A DNA stretch of 64,000 nt from Bacteroidota bacterium (lineage in GTDB: Bacteria > Bacteroidota > Bacteroidia > Flavobacteriales_D > Crocinitomicaceae): contig JACPUU010000012.1 of the NCBI GenBank assembly GCA_016192075.1, positions 558,001-622,000 on the forward strand, read 5' to 3'. This document shows positions 48,359 to 57,240 of this stretch, piece by piece. The translations under genes and the position numbers were made by a program. A model generated the notes under the pieces. The model searched no databases. It saw only the letters and a list, made by a program, of their open reading frames with translations, and was not told where the DNA came from. The stretch's first letter is position 1. Each line of letters begins with the position of its first letter.

Positions 48359-48384
48359 AAAGGGATGTCCGGAGACATCCCTTT
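48359..48384 (-). terminator. Intrinsic terminator of the 48.4-kb lipoprotein gene
   Basis: A perfect 11-bp stem AAAGGGATGTC / GACATCCCTTT with loop CGGA. On the minus strand it lies about 29 bases after the stop at 48413 and is followed by TTTCCTTTTT. Confidence 0.88.
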
Positions 48385-48412: not shown

Positions 48413-48865
48413 TTAGTTGTGAGCCAGGTGAAACTCGTGTGTGGCACCTCCATTTATAAATTCGTACCACAATTCATCTTTTGTCAGTTTCAGCAGTGTG
48501 TATTCAGATGCCGAAACCGAAGAATACTCATTGGAAAGTTCAAAACTTCCGGGACCGGAAATTTTAATAAGTGCATTATCACTTTCCAGTGACCAGGTGC
48601 CGGAAGCGGTTTTTAAATCTCCGCTTGAATCAGTAAAGGATCTGCCATAAGTGCCATCTTCACTGTACGTTTCTTTGTAATTTGTAATAATAAGGCTTGA
48701 AGTCATTTCGGCGCCGTTTAAATAGTACGACTGCAAACTCCAGTCTCCAACCAGGTTATCATCGGCTTTTCGTTTTGTACCGCCGTCTTCATACTTTTCG
48801 CAGGAATTCATGCTTAACAACACCGTTGTCATAAGCAGCATTAAACCTAAACCTTTTCTTTTCAT
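48413..48865 (-). CDS. Lipocalin-like lipoprotein
   Basis: 150 residues from the ATG at 48865, chosen because the promoter element at 48884-48911 excludes the longer frame to 48919. The signal ends LLSMNSC (lipobox-like). The body looks like a small beta-barrel of the lipocalin-like type: LVGDWSLQSYYLNGAEM, then short strands, SGTWSLESDNALIKIS and LTKDELWYEF near the end. Probably a monocistronic member of the ECF sigma regulon described at 56 kb. Function unknown; ligand binding is only inferred. Confidence 0.85.
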   Translation of the reverse strand: MKRKGLGLMLLMTTVLLSMNSCEKYEDGGTKRKADDNLVGDWSLQSYYLNGAEMTSSLIITNYKETYSEDGTYGRSFTDSSGDLKTASGTWSLESDNALIKISGPGSFELSNEYSSVSASEYTLLKLTKDELWYEFINGGATHEFHLAHN

Positions 48866-48883: not shown

Positions 48884-48911
48884 GATGAATGGAAATACAG
48901 AAAGGTTGGAA
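48884..48911 (-). promoter_or_regulatory. ECF-type promoter A (TTCCAACC-N16-CATC)
   Basis: Minus strand: TTCCAACC at 48911-48904, 16 bases, CATC at 48887-48884; a run of nine T lies upstream. The -10 is 18 bases from the ATG at 48865, giving a leader of about 12 bases. The element recurs at 54436-54463 and 57214-57240. Confidence 0.7.
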
Positions 48912-48972
48912 TTTTTCAAAAAAAAATTCTTTATCCTTAAAAAAACACTGATAAACAGTTAGTTAAAATTAA

Positions 48973-49656
48973 TTATTCTGGTACCGAAGGTTGGTCTTTT
49001 CTCTTTTTAGCCGTTAATTTATAATTCAGGGTAAGCCCAAAAATATGATCGACAGATGGCTTTTTGACATAAATTTCACGCTGATACATATAATACACTG
49101 CCAGGCTTAAATTCTTTGTAAAACTCCATTCAAATCCCAAACTGTAACGCGTATTTCTGAACTCATTTTTGCCAAAAAGAAAAAAAAGTTCATACGAGAG
49201 ATAAGGATCCAGGCGTTTACTCAGGTTGTAATCAAGGGTAATTTTATTGCGCAGGTATGATTCAGAATTCCCTGAATTTCTGTTTCGGGAATACTGAAAC
49301 TTGATTCTATATGAAAGCGCAAGCGGAAACCCTTTTTTACTCCAACTATAGGTTGCACCTAAACTTATCCGGTTAATATCATTTTGCAGCGGCCTGAGCG
49401 TATACCGGTATTCACTGAAAAAAGCAATGGATTTATTGAGATCGTATTTTACGCCGGCTTCTGCAATGGCTGCATTTAATGTTTTGATAGTGTCTGAAAA
49501 ACGGAATTCAGGAGACAGGTTCATGCTCCATTTTTTATTCAGTTTTACTTTGACATTTGCACCGGCCCAAAGCTGAATATCTGAATTTTGCTGACCAAAG
49601 GTATTCACCTGAAATAAAATCAGAAAAAGTGCCGGAAGTAGTTTACCAAATCTCAT
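48973..49656 (-). CDS. Outer membrane beta-barrel protein, DUF2490-like
   Basis: 227 residues with a signal peptide (ends NTFGQ). The start QNSDIQLWAGANVKVKLNKK, LNKSIAFFSEYRYTLRPL and repeated amphipathic strands ending in Tyr/Phe (YSLGFEWSFTKNLSLAVYYM) match DUF2490 barrels of Bacteroidota. Likely in the outer membrane, role unknown. It follows porP on the same strand but a hairpin separates them. Confidence 0.85.
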   Translation of the reverse strand: MRFGKLLPALFLILFQVNTFGQQNSDIQLWAGANVKVKLNKKWSMNLSPEFRFSDTIKTLNAAIAEAGVKYDLNKSIAFFSEYRYTLRPLQNDINRISLGATYSWSKKGFPLALSYRIKFQYSRNRNSGNSESYLRNKITLDYNLSKRLDPYLSYELFFLFGKNEFRNTRYSLGFEWSFTKNLSLAVYYMYQREIYVKKPSVDHIFGLTLNYKLTAKKRKDQPSVPE

Positions 49657-49687
49657 AAAAACAGATATACAGTGATGATGCTGATTG

Positions 49688-49731
49688 AAATTGAATCACC
49701 CGATCATTTGACTGACCGGGCAATTCAATTT
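49688..49731 (-). terminator. Long hairpin downstream of the PorP/SprF-like gene
   Basis: Arms AAATTGAATCACCCG (49688-49702) and CGGGCAATTCAATTT (49717-49731). In minus-strand RNA all 15 positions pair (two as G-U); on the plus strand those two would be mismatches, so the structure fits a leftward transcript. No clear T-run follows, so termination is probable but not certain. Confidence 0.5.
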
Positions 49732-49774
49732 ACGTATTAACCTGAAATCAGGTTTTTCAATCAGCCGCAAGTAC

Positions 49775-50770
49775 TTAAAGTATGCTTGGCGCAGAATTTA
49801 CGCCTTTCCGGTTAGCCATATTCAACTTATAGGCAAGAGTAATTTCATGCGCATTAATGCTGGTTACCTGGTTTGTCAGGTTGGCATTTACAATATCGTA
49901 ACTGTAGGCAAACATAAACGATTTGTGGTCAAAAGAAAGCATTGCCGCCATGGCATCACTGGTCCGGTACCACATGCCTAATCTCATTTTTGAAGATTCA
50001 CCCAAATGGTAATCAAGGTACAAACCAACGGCCAGGCTTTGATTGTTAGCCTGGTAAATATAATTCACATTGGGTGTAAAATCCAGTTTGGAATCAGCTC
50101 CTTTTATTTTAACCCCTGTTTGAAAACCAAATGACATGGGCAGTGTTCCCTGTCCGTCAACAAACGTTTCATTTGGCTTATTCAGGTGATAGGATGAAAA
50201 TCCGGCATAAGCATTCAGCTTTGAATCAGCATCGTTCATGTACCACATTATTCCAAATCCCATATCTGCATAGCCGAGTTTGTTGCGGGTAATGTTTGCA
50301 CTGGTAGCATTGGATGCGTTGTAAGCCCCCAACACATATTGGTCATCAAAGGTAAGTGAAGACTGGTCCAGCGATTTTTGAACATAGCCTCCAAGCATTG
50401 AAAAACTCAGAAAACCTGATTCACTTACTTTCAGATTATAACCAACAGAAAGTGAAAAATCCATTTTGGTGAAGGCGCCTGCTTTATCATTCAGAAACCC
50501 AAGACCAAAATCCATTTTTTGATTCTGGTCTTTAAAATACAATGGAAAAGCTGCTGTAAATGACGCTGTATTGAACCCATTCTGAACAGTGGTCCATTGC
50601 GTTCTGTAATTCAAAATGGTTTTGAAATCTGTATTCATTCCCAACACTGCAGGATTAACCTTTAACGGGTTGCTGTAAAAATACTGGGTATATTTAAGAT
50701 CCTGTGAAAGCGCAGCACCTTGTAAATACAGCAGCCCAACTAGTAGTATACTTTTTATTAACGTTTTCAT
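49775..50770 (-). CDS. PorP/SprF-family type IX secretion membrane protein
   Basis: 331 residues. Signal peptide (ends GAALSQ), then the family start DLKYTQYFYSNPLKVNPAVLG and an outer membrane barrel with repeated motifs (GFNTASFTAAFPLYF, LDFTPNVNYIYQANNQSLAV). PorP/SprF proteins anchor or assist secretion of T9SS type B substrates such as SprB. The gene lies 15 bases downstream of a gene for a type B CTD protein, the expected pairing. Confidence 0.95.
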   Translation of the reverse strand: MKTLIKSILLVGLLYLQGAALSQDLKYTQYFYSNPLKVNPAVLGMNTDFKTILNYRTQWTTVQNGFNTASFTAAFPLYFKDQNQKMDFGLGFLNDKAGAFTKMDFSLSVGYNLKVSESGFLSFSMLGGYVQKSLDQSSLTFDDQYVLGAYNASNATSANITRNKLGYADMGFGIMWYMNDADSKLNAYAGFSSYHLNKPNETFVDGQGTLPMSFGFQTGVKIKGADSKLDFTPNVNYIYQANNQSLAVGLYLDYHLGESSKMRLGMWYRTSDAMAAMLSFDHKSFMFAYSYDIVNANLTNQVTSINAHEITLAYKLNMANRKGVNSAPSIL

Positions 50771-50785
50771 ATCCGCTGATTTTTT

Positions 50786-52345
50786 TTATCTGATTAAATT
50801 GACAAGTCCTGATTCATGAAGTTCTGTTCCGTCTGAGAGTATACCTTGTATATCATACAAATAGGCTCCTTCAGGCAAATCTTCACGGGTTATTTGCCTG
50901 GTACCATCCCAACCACTGCTGAGACTCGACGAATAGAATATCAGCTCACCGTGCCGGTTATAAATTCTGAACTGGAAGTCCGTAATACCATCTCCTCTCA
51001 CATACAACACATTGTTTGTTGCGGCTGAAGGTGTAAATGCATTTGGAATCCAATACGAAGGTGTAATAACAATTACGTCTACGGTGTCACTGTTGATACA
51101 GCCGTAAACATCTGTAACGGTAACGGTATAGGTGGTGCTGGTTTCGGGAGAGGCCAACGGATTATAAATACCACTGCTGGAAAGTTCATAGTCCGGTGTC
51201 CATTCATACTGAATGCCTCCGGTTGCAACCAATTGTGCTGTTTCTCCGGTTGTAATGGAATCATCCAAACCGGCGTATGCATCTGGCAGCTGATTAACCA
51301 CCACGGTTACCTCATCTGTTTCAGACGGGCAGCCATAGTCATTTGATACGTTCAATACATAGGTTATGGTGCTGTCAGGTTTTACCACCGGGTTTGATGC
51401 CGTTGTATCAGAAATTCCATTGGCCATATTCCACGCATAAAGCTGCGATTCAATAAACCCGTTTCCAATCTGAACGGAATCGTTTCTGCAAATTGTCACG
51501 TCTGCACCGGCATTGGCAATGATTGGCTGCAACATGGTAATTTGAACTGAATCTGTATTTGAACAGCCTGTCAGCGTGTCCAAAAGAAAAACAGTAATGT
51601 TGGTGATTTCTGCCACTGGTGATACTACCGGGTTTGAAACGGACGGATCTGCAATCACTAACGAACCGGAAGGGCTCCAGGCATACACTACATCCGGCAA
51701 AGCAGCCGAACCTATCTGCACACTGGCATTGGGGCAAATTACGGTATCAGTGCCTGCATCAGCAACGGGTAATGATTCAATTGAAATAGTTTGCGTTGTA
51801 GTTACCTGGCACAAACCATTATCAATTGTAAGGGTAACCGTTTTTGTACCTGCGGTAGAATAGGTTACACCTTGTGGGTTTTGAACGCTCGAACTTTGCG
51901 GTGATGCCCCTACACCAAAATCCCACTGGTATGAAATGGCCGTGGTACCGGTGTATGTGAAATCCACGGCTGATGATACGCATTGCGGTGCCGTAGATGT
52001 AAAGCTCACGTTTGGTGATGCAACCACATCAAAATTCCGGTTCTGAACATCGTTACACCCAATTGATGGTTTACTGATTGTCAACGTAACATTTTTATTG
52101 CCTAATGTGGAATATATAACCGGCGGCGGATTTGCACCCACGTAATTAGCCGGTGTTGCACCAGCACCAAAATTCCAGGTATAGGTATATGAACCGTCGT
52201 TTGGAGGATCTGAAATGTTGGCAAATGCCTGGGGCTGCCCGATGCATATTGGATCAAAGGCCTCCTGAAAATCTGCATTACACTGGGAAAAAGATACCAG
52301 CGCACCGCATGAATGTGTGAGTAGAATAATAAGCAGTTTTTTCAT
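50786..52345 (-). CDS. Secreted PKD-domain protein with T9SS type B sorting domain
   Basis: 519 residues from the ATG at 52345 (MKKLLIILLTHSCGALVSFS signal; the ORF extends eight residues further). Two PKD-like domains lie N-terminally (YTWNFGAGATP, YQWDFGVGASP), then Ig-like repeats with ADAGTDTVICPNASVQIG, ANAGADVTICRNDSVQIG and YAGLDDSI. The C-terminal domain has WIPNAFTPSAATN and FRIYNRHGELIF, a CHU_C type B signal. Predicted to be secreted by T9SS with the PorP/SprF protein encoded just downstream. Confidence 0.93.
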   Translation of the reverse strand: MKKLLIILLTHSCGALVSFSQCNADFQEAFDPICIGQPQAFANISDPPNDGSYTYTWNFGAGATPANYVGANPPPVIYSTLGNKNVTLTISKPSIGCNDVQNRNFDVVASPNVSFTSTAPQCVSSAVDFTYTGTTAISYQWDFGVGASPQSSSVQNPQGVTYSTAGTKTVTLTIDNGLCQVTTTQTISIESLPVADAGTDTVICPNASVQIGSAALPDVVYAWSPSGSLVIADPSVSNPVVSPVAEITNITVFLLDTLTGCSNTDSVQITMLQPIIANAGADVTICRNDSVQIGNGFIESQLYAWNMANGISDTTASNPVVKPDSTITYVLNVSNDYGCPSETDEVTVVVNQLPDAYAGLDDSITTGETAQLVATGGIQYEWTPDYELSSSGIYNPLASPETSTTYTVTVTDVYGCINSDTVDVIVITPSYWIPNAFTPSAATNNVLYVRGDGITDFQFRIYNRHGELIFYSSSLSSGWDGTRQITREDLPEGAYLYDIQGILSDGTELHESGLVNLIR

Positions 52346-52380
52346 AATTGTAGTTTTTAGTAGACACAAATCAATCCCTG

Positions 52381-52405
52381 CCGGGACTTTTTTTCAAAGT
52401 CCCGG
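52381..52405. terminator. Hairpin between two T9SS genes
   Basis: A perfect 10-bp stem CCGGGACTTT / AAAGTCCCGG with loop TTTTC. It is 49 bases past the stop of the 52454 gene (minus). There is no T-run on the minus strand, so it is either a rho-independent-like terminator of low efficiency or a transcript-stability hairpin. Confidence 0.45.
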
Positions 52406-52453
52406 TTTGGAATTTTTAACTTTTGTAAAGAATTGGTATATGCCGCTAACCGG

Positions 52454-53689
52454 CTATTTTTTGACCAGTTTTTTGGTCACTGAATTTGCATTTTCATCTG
52501 ATATTTTGAGCAGGTAAATACCATTTGCCCAAATTTCTGTATTCAATACCAGCTGACTGATGTTTTGAGAATTCCATGATTCAATGACACGGCCTTCAAT
52601 GTCTGTCAGTGTAAATGAATAGGTGCCGTTTACAGGCAAATAAACTGTGACATTTTCCACAAATGGATTCGGGCTGACAGCAACGTTGAGATTGTCTGAA
52701 TTTTCAGTCAACCCGTTTGGCGGTGGTGGTGGTGCAATGCCATATACAAACACAACACCGGCAGCTCCACAAAACCAACCCAGCTCTTCATTAATCATGG
52801 TGATTGAAAAAATATCTTCAGGCGTTCCACTGGTTTCAGGGGCCCAGGTCACTCCGGCATCTATTGTTTTAATAACAGTACCGGCTGTACCTACAGCCCA
52901 GCCCATGGTATCATTTACAAATTCAACATCAAATAAATCTTCTGGTGTATTGCTGGTTTGCACATTCCAGTTCAGACCCCAGTCATTGGTGAAAACAATG
53001 GCACCGGCCTTTCCAACAGCCCAACCGGTTGAATCATTAATAAACCAGATTGATTCAAGGTCTTCAGGGGTGTTGCTTGTTTGATTTACCCAGGTGTTTC
53101 CTGAGTCAGAAGAATGTGCAATGTTTCCGGCACGGCCGGCAATGTAACCGTTTGCCGGTGTTGTAAAATGAACCCCGCGCAAATGGTCTCCGGTGCTGGC
53201 ACTTATGTCAACCCAGCTTGTACCGCCATCTGTTGTTCTAACCACATAATCATTCCGGCCGCAGGCATAACCAATCGTTGGTGTTACAAATTTTATATCT
53301 TCAAAACGCTCAGGGAAAGGTGTGCTTTCAACCCAGGTATTTCCACCGTTTATTGTTTTGAGAATAAACCCGTTCCCTGACATGGCATTTTCACCGGCCA
53401 GGTACCCGATAGCAGTTGACACAAAAAAACTGCCCTTGCTCAGATAGACAGGTGAACCCATGGAAAGAAAACTCCAATCAGAGCCTTGTGTAACCGTTTT
53501 GAACTGGCTGCCATACACAAAACCTCCAAAGATATCAGAAGAGTCACCGTACATGTAAACCGTTGAAGAACTGGCTGCATAAATGGTGTTAAAATCATTT
53601 TGTGACATTGAATTCTGGGGCCACCATTGTTGACTGCTGGCCTGCAATGCACCAAATGAAAAAAGAGAGAGTAGTAGTTGTTTTTTCAT
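52454..53689 (-). CDS. Secreted YCF48-like propeller protein with T9SS type A sorting domain
   Basis: 411 residues. Signal peptide (ends ASSQQ). YCF48/BNR-like blades are seen in TINGGNTWVESTP, TTDGGTSWVDIS, SSDSGNTWVNQT, TNDWGLNWNVQT and TIDAGVTWAPET, each linked to a motif such as SIWFINDSTGWAVGKAGAIV. The C-terminal 80 residues (VAVSPNPFVENVTVYL, FTLTDIEGRVIESW, ANGIYLLKI, ending KKLVKK) are a type A T9SS signal (TIGR04183-like). Likely a secreted or cell-surface protein. Confidence 0.92.
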   Translation of the reverse strand: MKKQLLLSLFSFGALQASSQQWWPQNSMSQNDFNTIYAASSSTVYMYGDSSDIFGGFVYGSQFKTVTQGSDWSFLSMGSPVYLSKGSFFVSTAIGYLAGENAMSGNGFILKTINGGNTWVESTPFPERFEDIKFVTPTIGYACGRNDYVVRTTDGGTSWVDISASTGDHLRGVHFTTPANGYIAGRAGNIAHSSDSGNTWVNQTSNTPEDLESIWFINDSTGWAVGKAGAIVFTNDWGLNWNVQTSNTPEDLFDVEFVNDTMGWAVGTAGTVIKTIDAGVTWAPETSGTPEDIFSITMINEELGWFCGAAGVVFVYGIAPPPPPNGLTENSDNLNVAVSPNPFVENVTVYLPVNGTYSFTLTDIEGRVIESWNSQNISQLVLNTEIWANGIYLLKISDENANSVTKKLVKK

Positions 53690-53748
53690 AGTGTAGTTGT
53701 TTTTTATTTAGTTATTGATTCAAGCGTAAGAGAGTAATTTTTTTGTTC

Positions 53749-53784
53749 AAAAGAGAGGGCCAAAAGCTATGCTCCCTCTCTTTT
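53749..53784 (-). terminator. Intrinsic terminator of the 53.8-kb lipoprotein gene
   Basis: AAAAGAGAGGG (53749-53759) and CCCTCTCTTTT (53774-53784) pair perfectly across a 14-base loop. On the minus strand the stem begins 16 bases after the stop at 53800 and ends in a short T-run. Confidence 0.85.
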
Positions 53785-53799
53785 TATCAGATTGAACGA

Positions 53800-54417
53800 T
53801 TATTTTTTTTCAAAATTCAAAAGTGATGAGCGCGTGTACATGTCACCGTTATTATAGGTATTGTGAATGTCTACAATTATGGAAAGTTCTTTTCCGGTTA
53901 ACCGGTCAAGCTGAAATGATAAATCGGCCGAAACGGCTGTACCACCGTAAGTGTCAATTTGACCATCATTGGTCTCAGTTATCGTAATAACAACAGTTTC
54001 TTTTTTCTTCAGCTCCTGTGTTTTGCTTTTGCCTCCCCAATACCAGAACCCTTTATCGATGTCTGAATTTCCGTCTTCAATTTGAGTAAGGCTGAATGAA
54101 CCGTCTTTTTCAAATGTATATTCCAGGGTATATGAAACTGTAAACGGTGCATTTGTTACCGTGCCGGAAACGTCCTGAAATGACGTAACAGAAGTATATG
54201 CGCTTCCATCATAGGTTATTGTTTCTGTCCAGGTTTCCTGATTGCCGGCATCATAATCCATGGTGGTTTCTTCACCACTCACCAGCTTCCAGGTAGCAAC
54301 CAATCGGACAGTTCTTGACTTCAGGCTTAAGGCAGGATCATTCTCTCCTTTTTTGCAGGAGACGATTGTCATTGTTCCAAAAATCAGCAGCGCGGCTGCC
54401 AGTACAGATTTTTTCAT
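53800..54417 (-). CDS. Lipocalin-like lipoprotein
   Basis: 205 residues from the ATG at 54417 (MKKSVLAAALLIFGTMTIVSC, lipobox Cys at residue 21; ATG 54423 adds two residues). Beta-rich body with VRLVATWKLVSGEE, TYDGSAYTSVTSF, YTLEYTFEKDGSFS and DKGFWYWGGKSKTQEL, the strand pattern of lipocalin-like lipoproteins of Bacteroidota. It has the promoter element TTCCAACC-N16-CATC, as does the 48.4-kb gene, and is downstream of the ECF sigma operon. Function unknown. Confidence 0.85.
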   Translation of the reverse strand: MKKSVLAAALLIFGTMTIVSCKKGENDPALSLKSRTVRLVATWKLVSGEETTMDYDAGNQETWTETITYDGSAYTSVTSFQDVSGTVTNAPFTVSYTLEYTFEKDGSFSLTQIEDGNSDIDKGFWYWGGKSKTQELKKKETVVITITETNDGQIDTYGGTAVSADLSFQLDRLTGKELSIIVDIHNTYNNGDMYTRSSLLNFEKK

Positions 54418-54435
54418 AATCATTCTTTTTCTCAG

Positions 54436-54463
54436 GATGAATGAAAGAATGAAATGGTTGGAA
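54436..54463 (-). promoter_or_regulatory. ECF-type promoter B (TTCCAACC-N16-CATC)
   Basis: Minus strand: TTCCAACC at 54463-54456, 16 bases, CATC at 54439-54436, preceded by a 10-T tract. The -10 lies 19 bases before the ATG at 54417. Same spacing as promoter A. Confidence 0.7.
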
Positions 54464-54620
54464 TAAATTCAAAAAAAAAATAGTGCAAAAGTGTGACGAC
54501 GCTAAAACATCACCCGTTAAAACCGATACTACAACGAACGAATAAAATGGTTGGAACAAATTCAAAAAAAATAGTGCTAAAGTATGCCGATGCTAAAACA
54601 TCACCCGTTAAAACCGATAC
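54451..54620 (-). repeat. Tandem duplication (91-93 bp) of a gene 3' end plus ECF promoter -35
   Basis: Copy 1 is about 54451-54529 and copy 2 about 54544-54620. Both contain GGTTGGAA, an A-tract, TAGTGC and CTAAAACATCACCCGTTAAAACCGATAC-type sequence (plus strand reading). Copy 2 includes the last codons of the upstream gene; copy 1 has the same codons out of frame. Copy 2 keeps TTCCAACC (54556-54549) but has no CATC at the right distance, so only copy 1 forms a full promoter. Confidence 0.88.
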
Positions 54621-55939
54621 CGGAACGAGCAATACACCCCTGTAAGGTAGGTGTTGGTGTAGTTGAATTTTTTTGCCGCAAGCGAAGAGCTGGTTGCAAT
54701 ATTGGTAAACCCGGCATCTGATTGCAGGCCATACTCAAAAACAAACGAACCAAATGTGTGTTGCGAACCTATTGCTGCAGTAATACCCCCATCAAAACGT
54801 TCAAAAACCTGGTTTGCCAACAGTTCTTTATCTTCATAAAGTTCACTTTTGGTTGCAAGCGCCATAAAAATACCGCCTTTAAAAACAAATGCCTGTGTAT
54901 TTGAAAACAGTTCAGGCAATGTATACCTGTAAACCAGTTTGTATTTTTGCTGACGAAGTACCACCAGGTTGGTACAAATAGTTCCCGCTTCAAAATGATC
55001 ATAACGCTGGTTCATGACTGACAAAAAATCAACGTGCAAACCAACACCATGATTTTCAGAAAAGTTTACATACGCACTGGCACCCGCATGATACCCCATT
55101 GAAAATTTATTGTCTACCAGTGAAAACCTGTTTAACCCGTCTCTTACATCATTGTTAAAAATCCAGGTATTATCAACTCCTGCCACAAGGCCCAATTCAA
55201 AACGGTTAAATACCGGAACATCTCGTTCAATATGCTGAGGCAATTCTGAAAAAAGATACGCCGGTTGTATTGGACAAACCAACTGCGGTGGAAACTTGAT
55301 CATGAATTCATTTTCTACCGGCTTATGTTCGGTCAGAACATCAACTGCTTTAAGCCCGGTTTCATCCGGTCCGGCCACACTATCAACAATAGTGTTTGAA
55401 GGAATAAATGCCTCTGAAAAACCACCGTCAGTCTGTTTTTTTTCAGTATTAACAACGAGTCGGGTTTCACCAGACTCATTTAATTGTATTTCAGAATTAG
55501 TTGCGGTAAAAGGTACAACGGGTTCTGCCGTATGATGAATTGGAATCTTTGAATTGCGTTGAGCCGCATTAAATTTTGCTGCAACATAATCTGTACCGGA
55601 CCCGTCCGCCGGATAAAATTTCCAGAACGAAATTCCGGCCATCAGAACAACTGCCAAACCAGAAAAATACAGCCAAAAAAACCGGCGCTTGCGTTTATCA
55701 AGCGCAGCTGAAATATTCAGCCAGACATCATCAATAATCAATTGCTTTTTGACACCCTGCCAGGCTGATACCGGTGCCTTTTTGCTCTCAGCGCTGAAAG
55801 CACCCGCAACGGCCTGTTCAGTATCATCCAATGAAAGATTATGCGCAAGGCCAGACCATACCGATTCAGGTGCTTTTCGCTGAACCTGTGAAAAACCGTT
55901 TTTAATGGGGTCAGTATGTAAGGGATTCTGATCAGCCAT
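54608..55939 (-). CDS. Putative anti-sigma factor fused to an outer membrane-like beta-barrel
   Basis: 443 residues. The N-terminal ~80 residues are cytoplasmic-like and contain two copies of KAP-x-S-x-W-x-G (KAPESVWSGLAHNL and KAPVSAWQGVKKQL). A single membrane segment follows (RRFFWLYFSGLAVVLMAGIS, about 85-104), then a periplasmic linker and a C-terminal region (about 245-443) of amphipathic strands ending SFRYRF, as in outer membrane barrels. It overlaps the sigma gene by eight bases, the usual place for an anti-sigma factor. A sigma-binding role is inferred from position and topology. Confidence 0.65.
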   Translation of the reverse strand: MADQNPLHTDPIKNGFSQVQRKAPESVWSGLAHNLSLDDTEQAVAGAFSAESKKAPVSAWQGVKKQLIIDDVWLNISAALDKRKRRFFWLYFSGLAVVLMAGISFWKFYPADGSGTDYVAAKFNAAQRNSKIPIHHTAEPVVPFTATNSEIQLNESGETRLVVNTEKKQTDGGFSEAFIPSNTIVDSVAGPDETGLKAVDVLTEHKPVENEFMIKFPPQLVCPIQPAYLFSELPQHIERDVPVFNRFELGLVAGVDNTWIFNNDVRDGLNRFSLVDNKFSMGYHAGASAYVNFSENHGVGLHVDFLSVMNQRYDHFEAGTICTNLVVLRQQKYKLVYRYTLPELFSNTQAFVFKGGIFMALATKSELYEDKELLANQVFERFDGGITAAIGSQHTFGSFVFEYGLQSDAGFTNIATSSSLAAKKFNYTNTYLTGVYCSFRYRF

Positions 55940-56477
55940 TTTTTGCAGTTTGAATCATGGACCTGAGCAATGTTTTAGCACGGTTTAATTGTGATTTTGA
56001 AGTGCCCACCGAAATATTCAGCGCACTCGAAATTTCCTGGTGGCCATAGCCTTCCAGCGAATAGAGTTTTAATACCATTCTGGCTTTGGCAGGCAGTTCA
56101 TTAACGTATTTGACAATGTCAACCGGTTCAACTTCATTCAGGTAATCAACGGATGTGTCTGCCTCTTCTTTTGCAAACTCATCCACTACCTCCAGGTGGC
56201 GTACTTTTTTCCGGTAGTTTTCCAGCGCGGTATTCACCACAATCCGCCGGATCCATCCGCCTAATGATCTTGTACGGTCATGGCTGGCAAGATTTCTGAA
56301 GACTTTAATAAATCCCTCTTGTAAAATATCAGCCGCCTCATCATCGTTGTCACTGTAATTACAGGCAACAGTGTACATGGCATCAGCATATTTCCGATAC
56401 AGCATCTCCTGAAAAAGCCGTTTGTTTCCAAGTGCTCCTTCAACCAATTCATCATCACTGTAATCGTTATAATTCAT
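55932..56477 (-). CDS. ECF-type RNA polymerase sigma factor
   Basis: 181 residues. Region 2 is seen from about 25 to 90 (ADAMYTVACNYSDNDDEAAD and ILQEGFIKVFRNLASHDRTR, then GGWIRRIVVNTALENYRKK), region 4 from about 120 to 175 (LPAKARMVLKLYSLEGYGHQ followed by EISSALNISVGTSKSQLNRAK). Group IV sigma factors of this type direct RNA polymerase to stress or envelope promoters. It lies between a lipoprotein gene (nine bases upstream) and the putative anti-sigma gene (8-base overlap). The operon promoter has TTCCAACC-N15-CATC, so autoregulation is likely. Confidence 0.95.
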   Translation of the reverse strand: MNYNDYSDDELVEGALGNKRLFQEMLYRKYADAMYTVACNYSDNDDEAADILQEGFIKVFRNLASHDRTRSLGGWIRRIVVNTALENYRKKVRHLEVVDEFAKEEADTSVDYLNEVEPVDIVKYVNELPAKARMVLKLYSLEGYGHQEISSALNISVGTSKSQLNRAKTLLRSMIQTAKNG

Positions 56478-56486
56478 GCTGAAACA

Positions 56487-57164
56487 TTACTGATAATTAA
56501 ACAGAATCACGACTGCTTCATCAACACGGTCAAGTACCATGTTGTAAATTTCTTCATTCACATCTTTACTGATTAGCAGCGTGTTTACACCCTCAATGTC
56601 TGTTAAGTCAGCATCATCAAAACTTGAGGCCGGCACCGGTTCAAACCAGTAAGCCGGGTCAAGAATAATTTTGGCCGGACTGTAAATATCTTTATCCAGT
56701 ACAATGTCAGCGCCGTCTTCTGCCTCAGCACGCGCTTCAAACGACTGGGTGTTTTCAATTTCAAACCTTACCGGAACGCTGCCCCCGCCGGAAAAAGAAT
56801 AGTTGCCGGTAACCACCAGGCTTACCTCCGTTAAATCATCACTTGTTTTAAAACGAATGTCCAGTCTTTTATAAATACCCTGGGGAATCACAAAATCCAT
56901 TGCCTCAATTTTCATGGTTTCATCAAACGGAATAGTCAGCCCATCCTGAAAATCTTTGGTAAAAAATACGTCGTCACCTTTTTGGCGCTCACCGTCAAAC
57001 TCAAAATATTCCAGTACAATTTCTCCCCCGGTAAATGTCAGCTGCCCGTCAATTGAAGACGTTTCAGTAATGTCCATGTAGAACCCAACCTCGGTTGGTT
57101 CTTTCCATTTTTTGCAGGAGATCAGCGTAGCAACAGCCAGTACCAGGATAACTTTATTTCTCAT
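56487..57164 (-). CDS. Lipoprotein of the ECF sigma operon, unknown function
   Basis: 225 residues from the ATG at 57164 (MRNKVILVLAVATLISC, lipobox Cys at residue 17); frames open to 57200 add 12 residues without signal features. The body is acidic and beta-rich (DGQLTFTGGEIVLEYFEFDG, GIYKRLDIRFKTSDD, SLVVTGNYSFSG), vaguely like DUF4382-type lipoproteins. It is the first gene of the operon with the sigma factor and the putative anti-sigma protein. A sensing or load role is possible but unproven. Confidence 0.8.
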   Translation of the reverse strand: MRNKVILVLAVATLISCKKWKEPTEVGFYMDITETSSIDGQLTFTGGEIVLEYFEFDGERQKGDDVFFTKDFQDGLTIPFDETMKIEAMDFVIPQGIYKRLDIRFKTSDDLTEVSLVVTGNYSFSGGGSVPVRFEIENTQSFEARAEAEDGADIVLDKDIYSPAKIILDPAYWFEPVPASSFDDADLTDIEGVNTLLISKDVNEEIYNMVLDRVDEAVVILFNYQ

Positions 57165-57213
57165 AACGTGTTTTGAATGTAAGGCCATTACAGCAACCAT
57201 TCGCTATAATTAA

Positions 57214-57240
57214 GATGCCTAAATGTACAAATGGTTGGAA
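57214..57240 (-). promoter_or_regulatory. ECF-type promoter C (TTCCAACC-N15-CATC) of the sigma operon
   Basis: Minus strand: TTCCAACC at 57240-57233, 15 bases, CATC at 57217-57214 (CATCTTAA). A-T tracts lie just upstream. It precedes the lipoprotein-sigma-anti-sigma operon. Confidence 0.7.

Follow-up and report, generated by a model that had tools for sequence, protein, structure and literature searches.

The window analysed here, 64,000 nt of a Bacteroidota bacterium (Crocinitomicaceae; GCA_016192075.1, contig JACPUU010000012.1, positions 558,001-622,000, forward strand), carries an operon encoding an extracytoplasmic function (ECF) sigma factor and, on the same minus strand, three sites in which the -35 box TTCCAACC is followed after 15 or 16 bases by CATC. 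One site precedes the sigma operon and the others precede two nearby lipoprotein genes, hereafter A and B. Comparison of sequences strongly suggests that the sigma factor activates its own operon and both neighbors through one shared promoter type. We put at roughly 85% the probability of the whole reading, in which the three sites are promoters of the ECF sigma factor at 55932-56477, and in which this factor is held at the membrane by an anti-sigma factor resembling the Dma proteins of Bacteroides, released by a signal, and autoregulated. A previous sequence-only reading had reported the three sites, with their shared -35, spacing and CATC, and its coordinates and strand proved exact:

57214..57240, minus strand: TTCCAACC-N15-CATC behind an A/T-rich stretch, predicted to be the ECF promoter of the operon for lipoprotein, sigma and anti-sigma
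54436..54463, minus strand: TTCCAACC-N16-CATC behind a T-run, predicted to be the promoter of lipoprotein A
48884..48911, minus strand: TTCCAACC-N16-CATC, predicted to be the promoter of lipoprotein B, with like sites at orthologs in two relatives (L038, L034)

The three paired sites compare with 0.04 expected in the window (sd 0.20), and none of 100 dinucleotide shuffles reached three. TTCCAACC by itself is unremarkable, with six occurrences against 3.2 expected, and so the significance of the motif comes from two boxes paired at a fixed spacing. The sequence-only reading had proposed scanning the complete genome for this motif. A pattern search of all 4.65 Mb for TTCCAACC-N14-17-CATC returned eight matches; the five outside the window all fall within long open reading frames (ORFs), leaving our three sites as the only intergenic strict matches, all within 9 kb of this sigma gene. 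At the operon, 49 nt separate the end of CATC from the likely ATG (57164). The T-tracts described as lying immediately upstream of the -35 are real, but 5-8 mostly A/T bases intervene (for example GAAAAA, GAATTTA or CAAAAAAA). Across a comparison set of 26 listed sites in 15 related loci, the 20 nt upstream have a mean A/T content of 0.80, compared with 0.67-0.69 farther upstream, and this A/T-rich stretch resembles what may be a UP-like element.

The operon reads, on the minus strand, as a gene for a 225-aa lipoprotein, a 9-nt gap, the ECF sigma gene, and, overlapping it by 8 nt, a gene for a 443-aa protein:

56487..57164, minus strand: first operon gene, 225-aa lipoprotein with a Cys17 lipobox and a predicted beta-rich fold (predicted local distance difference test score, pLDDT, 86), co-occurring with the sigma factor
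55932..56477, minus strand: ECF sigma factor, 181 aa (Sigma70_r2, E 3e-13; Sigma70_r4_2, E 2e-13)
54608..55939, minus strand: anti-sigma candidate of Dma layout, 443 aa, its gene adjacent to the ECF sigma gene with an 8-nt overlap
about 55619-55678, minus strand: the single predicted transmembrane helix of the anti-sigma candidate
about 55211-55618, minus strand: its predicted disordered tether
about 54614-55204, minus strand: its predicted C-terminal beta-barrel, OmpA/OprG/OmpW-like (Foldseek E down to 6e-9)

The domain matches in 55932-56477 confirm the earlier placement of the third site before an operon encoding an ECF sigma factor. The protein carries regions 2 and 4 only, the ECF (group 4) layout, and scores 87 bits against TIGR02985, below that model's cut-off of 126. 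For the lipoprotein we found no Pfam family, and neither a convincing structural relative nor a solid PDB match (best Foldseek E 0.03). The 443-aa protein likewise has no Pfam match; its predicted structure comprises helices at 11-107, about 135 disordered residues (108-243) and strands at 246-442, and it is on this model predicted to be an anti-sigma factor of the Dma, or dual membrane-spanning, layout. Its cytoplasmic part (the N-terminal 85 residues) contains two tandem copies of an F..(A)P..W..L motif, which also occurs in tandem in the anti-sigmas of L190, L192, L193 and L209, apparently in three copies in the last; the copies are possibly several sigma-binding sites.

These parts suggest how such a circuit could work. 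The Dma-like anti-sigma, spanning both membranes, would keep the sigma factor at the inner membrane until a signal at the outer membrane, passed through the barrel and tether, frees it. Free sigma would then transcribe its own operon, a positive autoregulation that would renew the anti-sigma as well, and would also transcribe the genes of lipoproteins B and A, altering the set of lipoproteins in the outer membrane.

If the sites are promoters of this sigma factor, they should be found with it in other genomes. The anti-sigma occurs in 13 of 150 family genomes, our own counted, and we found 12 further copies of the operon in 10 family genomes, plus two more contigs; the order lipoprotein-sigma-anti-sigma is conserved. 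In a sigma tree, 14 of the 15 operon sigmas fall into one clade (98/99). A wider search of 240 family genomes with a profile of the lipoprotein found it in 31, and in divergent relatives the anti-sigmas have, by reading, a similar layout. We compared promoters in 35 operons, namely 15 core operon leaders and 20 more divergent lipoprotein-sigma pairs. TTCCAACC is the commonest 8-mer of the core leaders (12/15; the best 8-mer in shuffles reached 5/15); of the remaining three operons, two carry TTGCAACC or TTACAACC and the third is headed by a lipoprotein B gene that bears the site. NNNCAACC stands at the promoter position in all 35 operons, the 20 divergent ones included, where the -10 boxes are TATC, CGTC, CATC, or CGTT/CGTA at spacing 17. 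By sequence, a conserved -35/-10 pair of the kind expected before an ECF sigma factor's own operon is present in 35/35. Among the 26 sites, the boxes are 15 or 16 bases apart, with one -10 type per locus.

This conservation across genera largely refutes the idea that the window's sites are alike merely through local duplication, without common regulation, which we regard as the least probable of the alternatives. It had drawn some credit from the two extra genes, which encode distantly similar lipoproteins, and from a repeat that touches one site:

54443..54620, minus strand: 91-bp tandem duplication, 1.9 copies at 89% match, that repeats the anti-sigma gene's 3' end as well as the -35 box of lipoprotein A's promoter

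The upstream copy holds a fourth TTCCAACC (54549-54556), absent from the list of the sequence-only reading and without CATC. The flanks of the three sites are otherwise dissimilar, however, and these boxes recur before the operon at many loci whose flanks are dissimilar too.

The -10 type provides a link from the sites to the sigma protein. In the 15 core operons the -10 boxes form two sets, CATC, CGTC or AGTC on the one hand and CGAC (once read as CTAC) on the other. The residue at position W+7 of region 2 is N or H in 29/29 operons with T as the third -10 base and F or Y in 6/6 operons with A there. In the window's sigma this residue is Asn82 (codon 56232-56234), which aligns, by the W-x-x-R-I/V-x-x-N spacing, with N88 of Mycobacterium tuberculosis sigma-H. 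That asparagine is reported to form a hydrogen bond with the base preceding the flipped master nucleotide, and a part in setting specificity has been proposed for it (PMC6411747). Two genomes, G025 and G004, carry both sigma types, and the sites around each operon show the -10 of the local sigma. This agreement between -10 type and sigma region 2 supports the link of the sites to the sigma, so far as sequences can. The same observations bear on the possibility that the three genes depend on the primary sigma, with TTCCAACC serving as an operator for a conventional transcription factor. A conserved 8-mer before several genes would also be expected from an operator. An operator does not account for a second box at spacing 15 or 16 that varies with the sigma's DNA-reading residue. 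Primary-sigma boxes (TAnnTTTG) are absent to a distance of 250 nt from the start of the operon and from that of lipoprotein A; one lies 180 nt before lipoprotein B. We consider this account very improbable.

Several observations weigh against the main reading or limit it. Of the three lipoprotein B orthologs with a readable upstream region, one (in G004) lacks the site. No TTCCAACC-type promoter was found at the nine closest lipoprotein A homologs read; the closest of all (G041, 51%) has TCCCAACC-N15-CGTT. The F/Y sigmas are close kin, and the co-variation at the N88 position therefore represents roughly one evolutionary switch, so that a Fisher p of 6e-7 overstates it. For two loci in the comparison, L031 and L110, the -10 box was assigned by eye, at spacings of 16 and 15, and the anti-sigma model is of low confidence in its N-terminal part (pLDDT about 45). 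Finally, TTCCAACC-N16-CGTC stands at C5:51181-51208 of the same genome (L102, L115), 113 nt upstream of another ECF gene (C5:50552).

This last site bears on the alternative that several paralogous sigmas read CAACC-type promoters, with the lipoprotein genes under overlapping or different sigma factors. The genome holds roughly 25 ECF-like loci (a few are other helix-turn-helix proteins), and related boxes occur at others of them, for example TGGCAACC-N15-CGTC and ACCCAACT-N16-CATC; overlapping ECF regulons have been suggested in Flavobacterium (PMC9723704). Because the C5 gene has the same -35 with CGTC, this box is not exclusive to one sigma, and specificity must also come from the -10. In its exact form, TTCCAACC with CATC, the motif is intergenic nowhere but within 9 kb of the sigma gene in the window. 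Moreover, the -10 type in relatives goes with the local sigma, even in genomes with two paralogs. Control by several sigmas accordingly seems to us unlikely, though the likeliest of the alternatives.

The broader pattern TTCCAACC-N14-17-CRWC was only modestly above a reversed control across 13 genomes, so that the motif by itself does not allow a genome-wide regulon to be called. In our genome, a looser pattern with a T-run gave 20 rows, compared with 14 in the control. We do not count its intergenic matches outside the window as targets: they lead to the C5 ECF gene and to a C6 lipoprotein gene near another ECF gene, and the others are C2:48905, without an ORF, and a doubtful match on C7. The C6 match (C6:72714-72753, L116) is TGCAACC-N16-CATC, 55 nt before a gene for a 428-aa predicted lipoprotein, and may belong to another ECF sigma encoded about 3 kb further on.

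The sequence-only reading had described both extra genes as encoding lipocalin-like lipoproteins. This held for B, which is also the only one of the two that is conserved in the regulon; A shows no more than a weak profile similarity:

53800..54423, minus strand: lipoprotein A, 207 aa, weakly lipocalin-like (hhalign E 1.9e-5 to lipoprotein B's family)
48413..48865, minus strand: lipoprotein B, 150 aa, Lipocalin_4 (Pfam E 1.9e-6), whose orthologs in three relatives lie close to the sigma operon
48359..48384, minus strand: intrinsic-terminator-like hairpin with an 11-bp stem, 3' of lipoprotein B

Lipoprotein A has no Pfam match, and its similarity to B's family lies mostly in the signal peptide and first motif. 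Its homologs are common (96/240 family genomes), the nine closest ones read lack the site, and its promoter touches the tandem duplication; for these reasons it appears, from sequence comparison, to be a local recruit to the regulon. The hairpin after lipoprotein B suggests a single-gene unit. Between the two lipoprotein genes (48973-53689) lie genes related to the type IX secretion system (T9SS; Por_Secre_tail, CHU_C, PorP/SprF) and one for a DUF2490 protein. The DUF2490 gene adjoins the lipoprotein B promoter directly upstream, and reading its sequence revealed no site of its own.

Among the relatives, genes that have these boxes in front of them encode lipoprotein B (L034, L038), DUF2490 proteins (L034, L038; Pfam E 6e-19 and 3e-21) and another small lipoprotein (L033, L038, L039). 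Phylogenetic footprinting supports the earlier proposal of an autoregulated ECF sigma with a local, lipoprotein-rich regulon, the regulon in relatives likewise appearing local and rich in lipoproteins. Three relatives have a further candidate target, a putative sigma-dependent small RNA:

L035 7041-7285, L037 1667-1855 and L040 8280-8505, plus strand: TTCCAACC-N15-CATC, non-coding, with a strong intrinsic terminator

It contains the conserved non-coding stretch GTAGTAGC ... CCAGTTAACCAA and lies beside the anti-sigma gene on the opposite strand. The pattern occurs in 3 of 240 family genomes, all of one genus, and had no match in our own; neither the window region nor the relatives gave an Rfam match. 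As a tentative wider picture, which as a whole we hold to be somewhat doubtful, the Das/Dma-like sigmas of the Crocinitomicaceae might have compact local regulons whose promoters co-evolve with one residue (N/H with T, F/Y with A); in one genus the regulon might also take in a new small RNA, ~150-210 nt long and encoded next to the operon, with a logic like that of sigma-E-dependent small RNAs; and the tandem F..P..W motifs might let one anti-sigma hold more than one sigma.

The closest known systems are the Dma/Das pairs of Bacteroides thetaiotaomicron, reportedly described by Pardue et al. in 2024. Anti-sigmas of this dual-membrane kind were discovered recently and have been investigated in Bacteroides. 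Our analysis would add a related system from a different family of Bacteroidota, together with its likely promoter and a mostly local regulon under autoregulation. The likeness is one of genes and predicted structure: an ECF sigma beside an anti-sigma of the same predicted layout, with Dma2 likewise in a three-gene operon; the ECF21 sigma and the link to vesicles are described for the Bacteroides pairs. There, Dma anti-sigmas adjoin ECF21 sigmas and consist of an N-terminal binding part, a transmembrane segment, a long disordered tether and a C-terminal barrel, and loss of Dma2 raises expression of its own operon and its neighbors and affects some polysaccharide loci (PMC13088901). In our operon, by contrast, a lipoprotein gene comes first, followed by sigma and anti-sigma, and this lipoprotein cannot be assigned to any named family. 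We propose a promoter motif for the operon; in the literature consulted we came upon none.

The proposed promoters resemble those of Escherichia coli sigma-E and M. tuberculosis sigma-H in having AAC in the -35, a short -10 after a spacer of about 15-16, and a -10 base tied to the same residue of region 2 (N80/N88); they differ in that the -35 is TTCCAACC and the -10 CATC, and in an anti-sigma predicted to cross both membranes. The reading makes simple, testable predictions about which genes respond and which sigma residue pairs with which promoter base, and genomes in which two paralogs go with different -10 boxes offer a ready-made natural experiment on specificity. Within Bacteroidota, Flavobacterium psychrophilum SM6 offers a parallel in ECF promoters with a short -10 and an ECF/anti-sigma operon among the targets, but there the -10 is CGT and the targets belong to the T9SS, whereas here CATC would direct transcription of local lipoprotein genes (PMC9723704).

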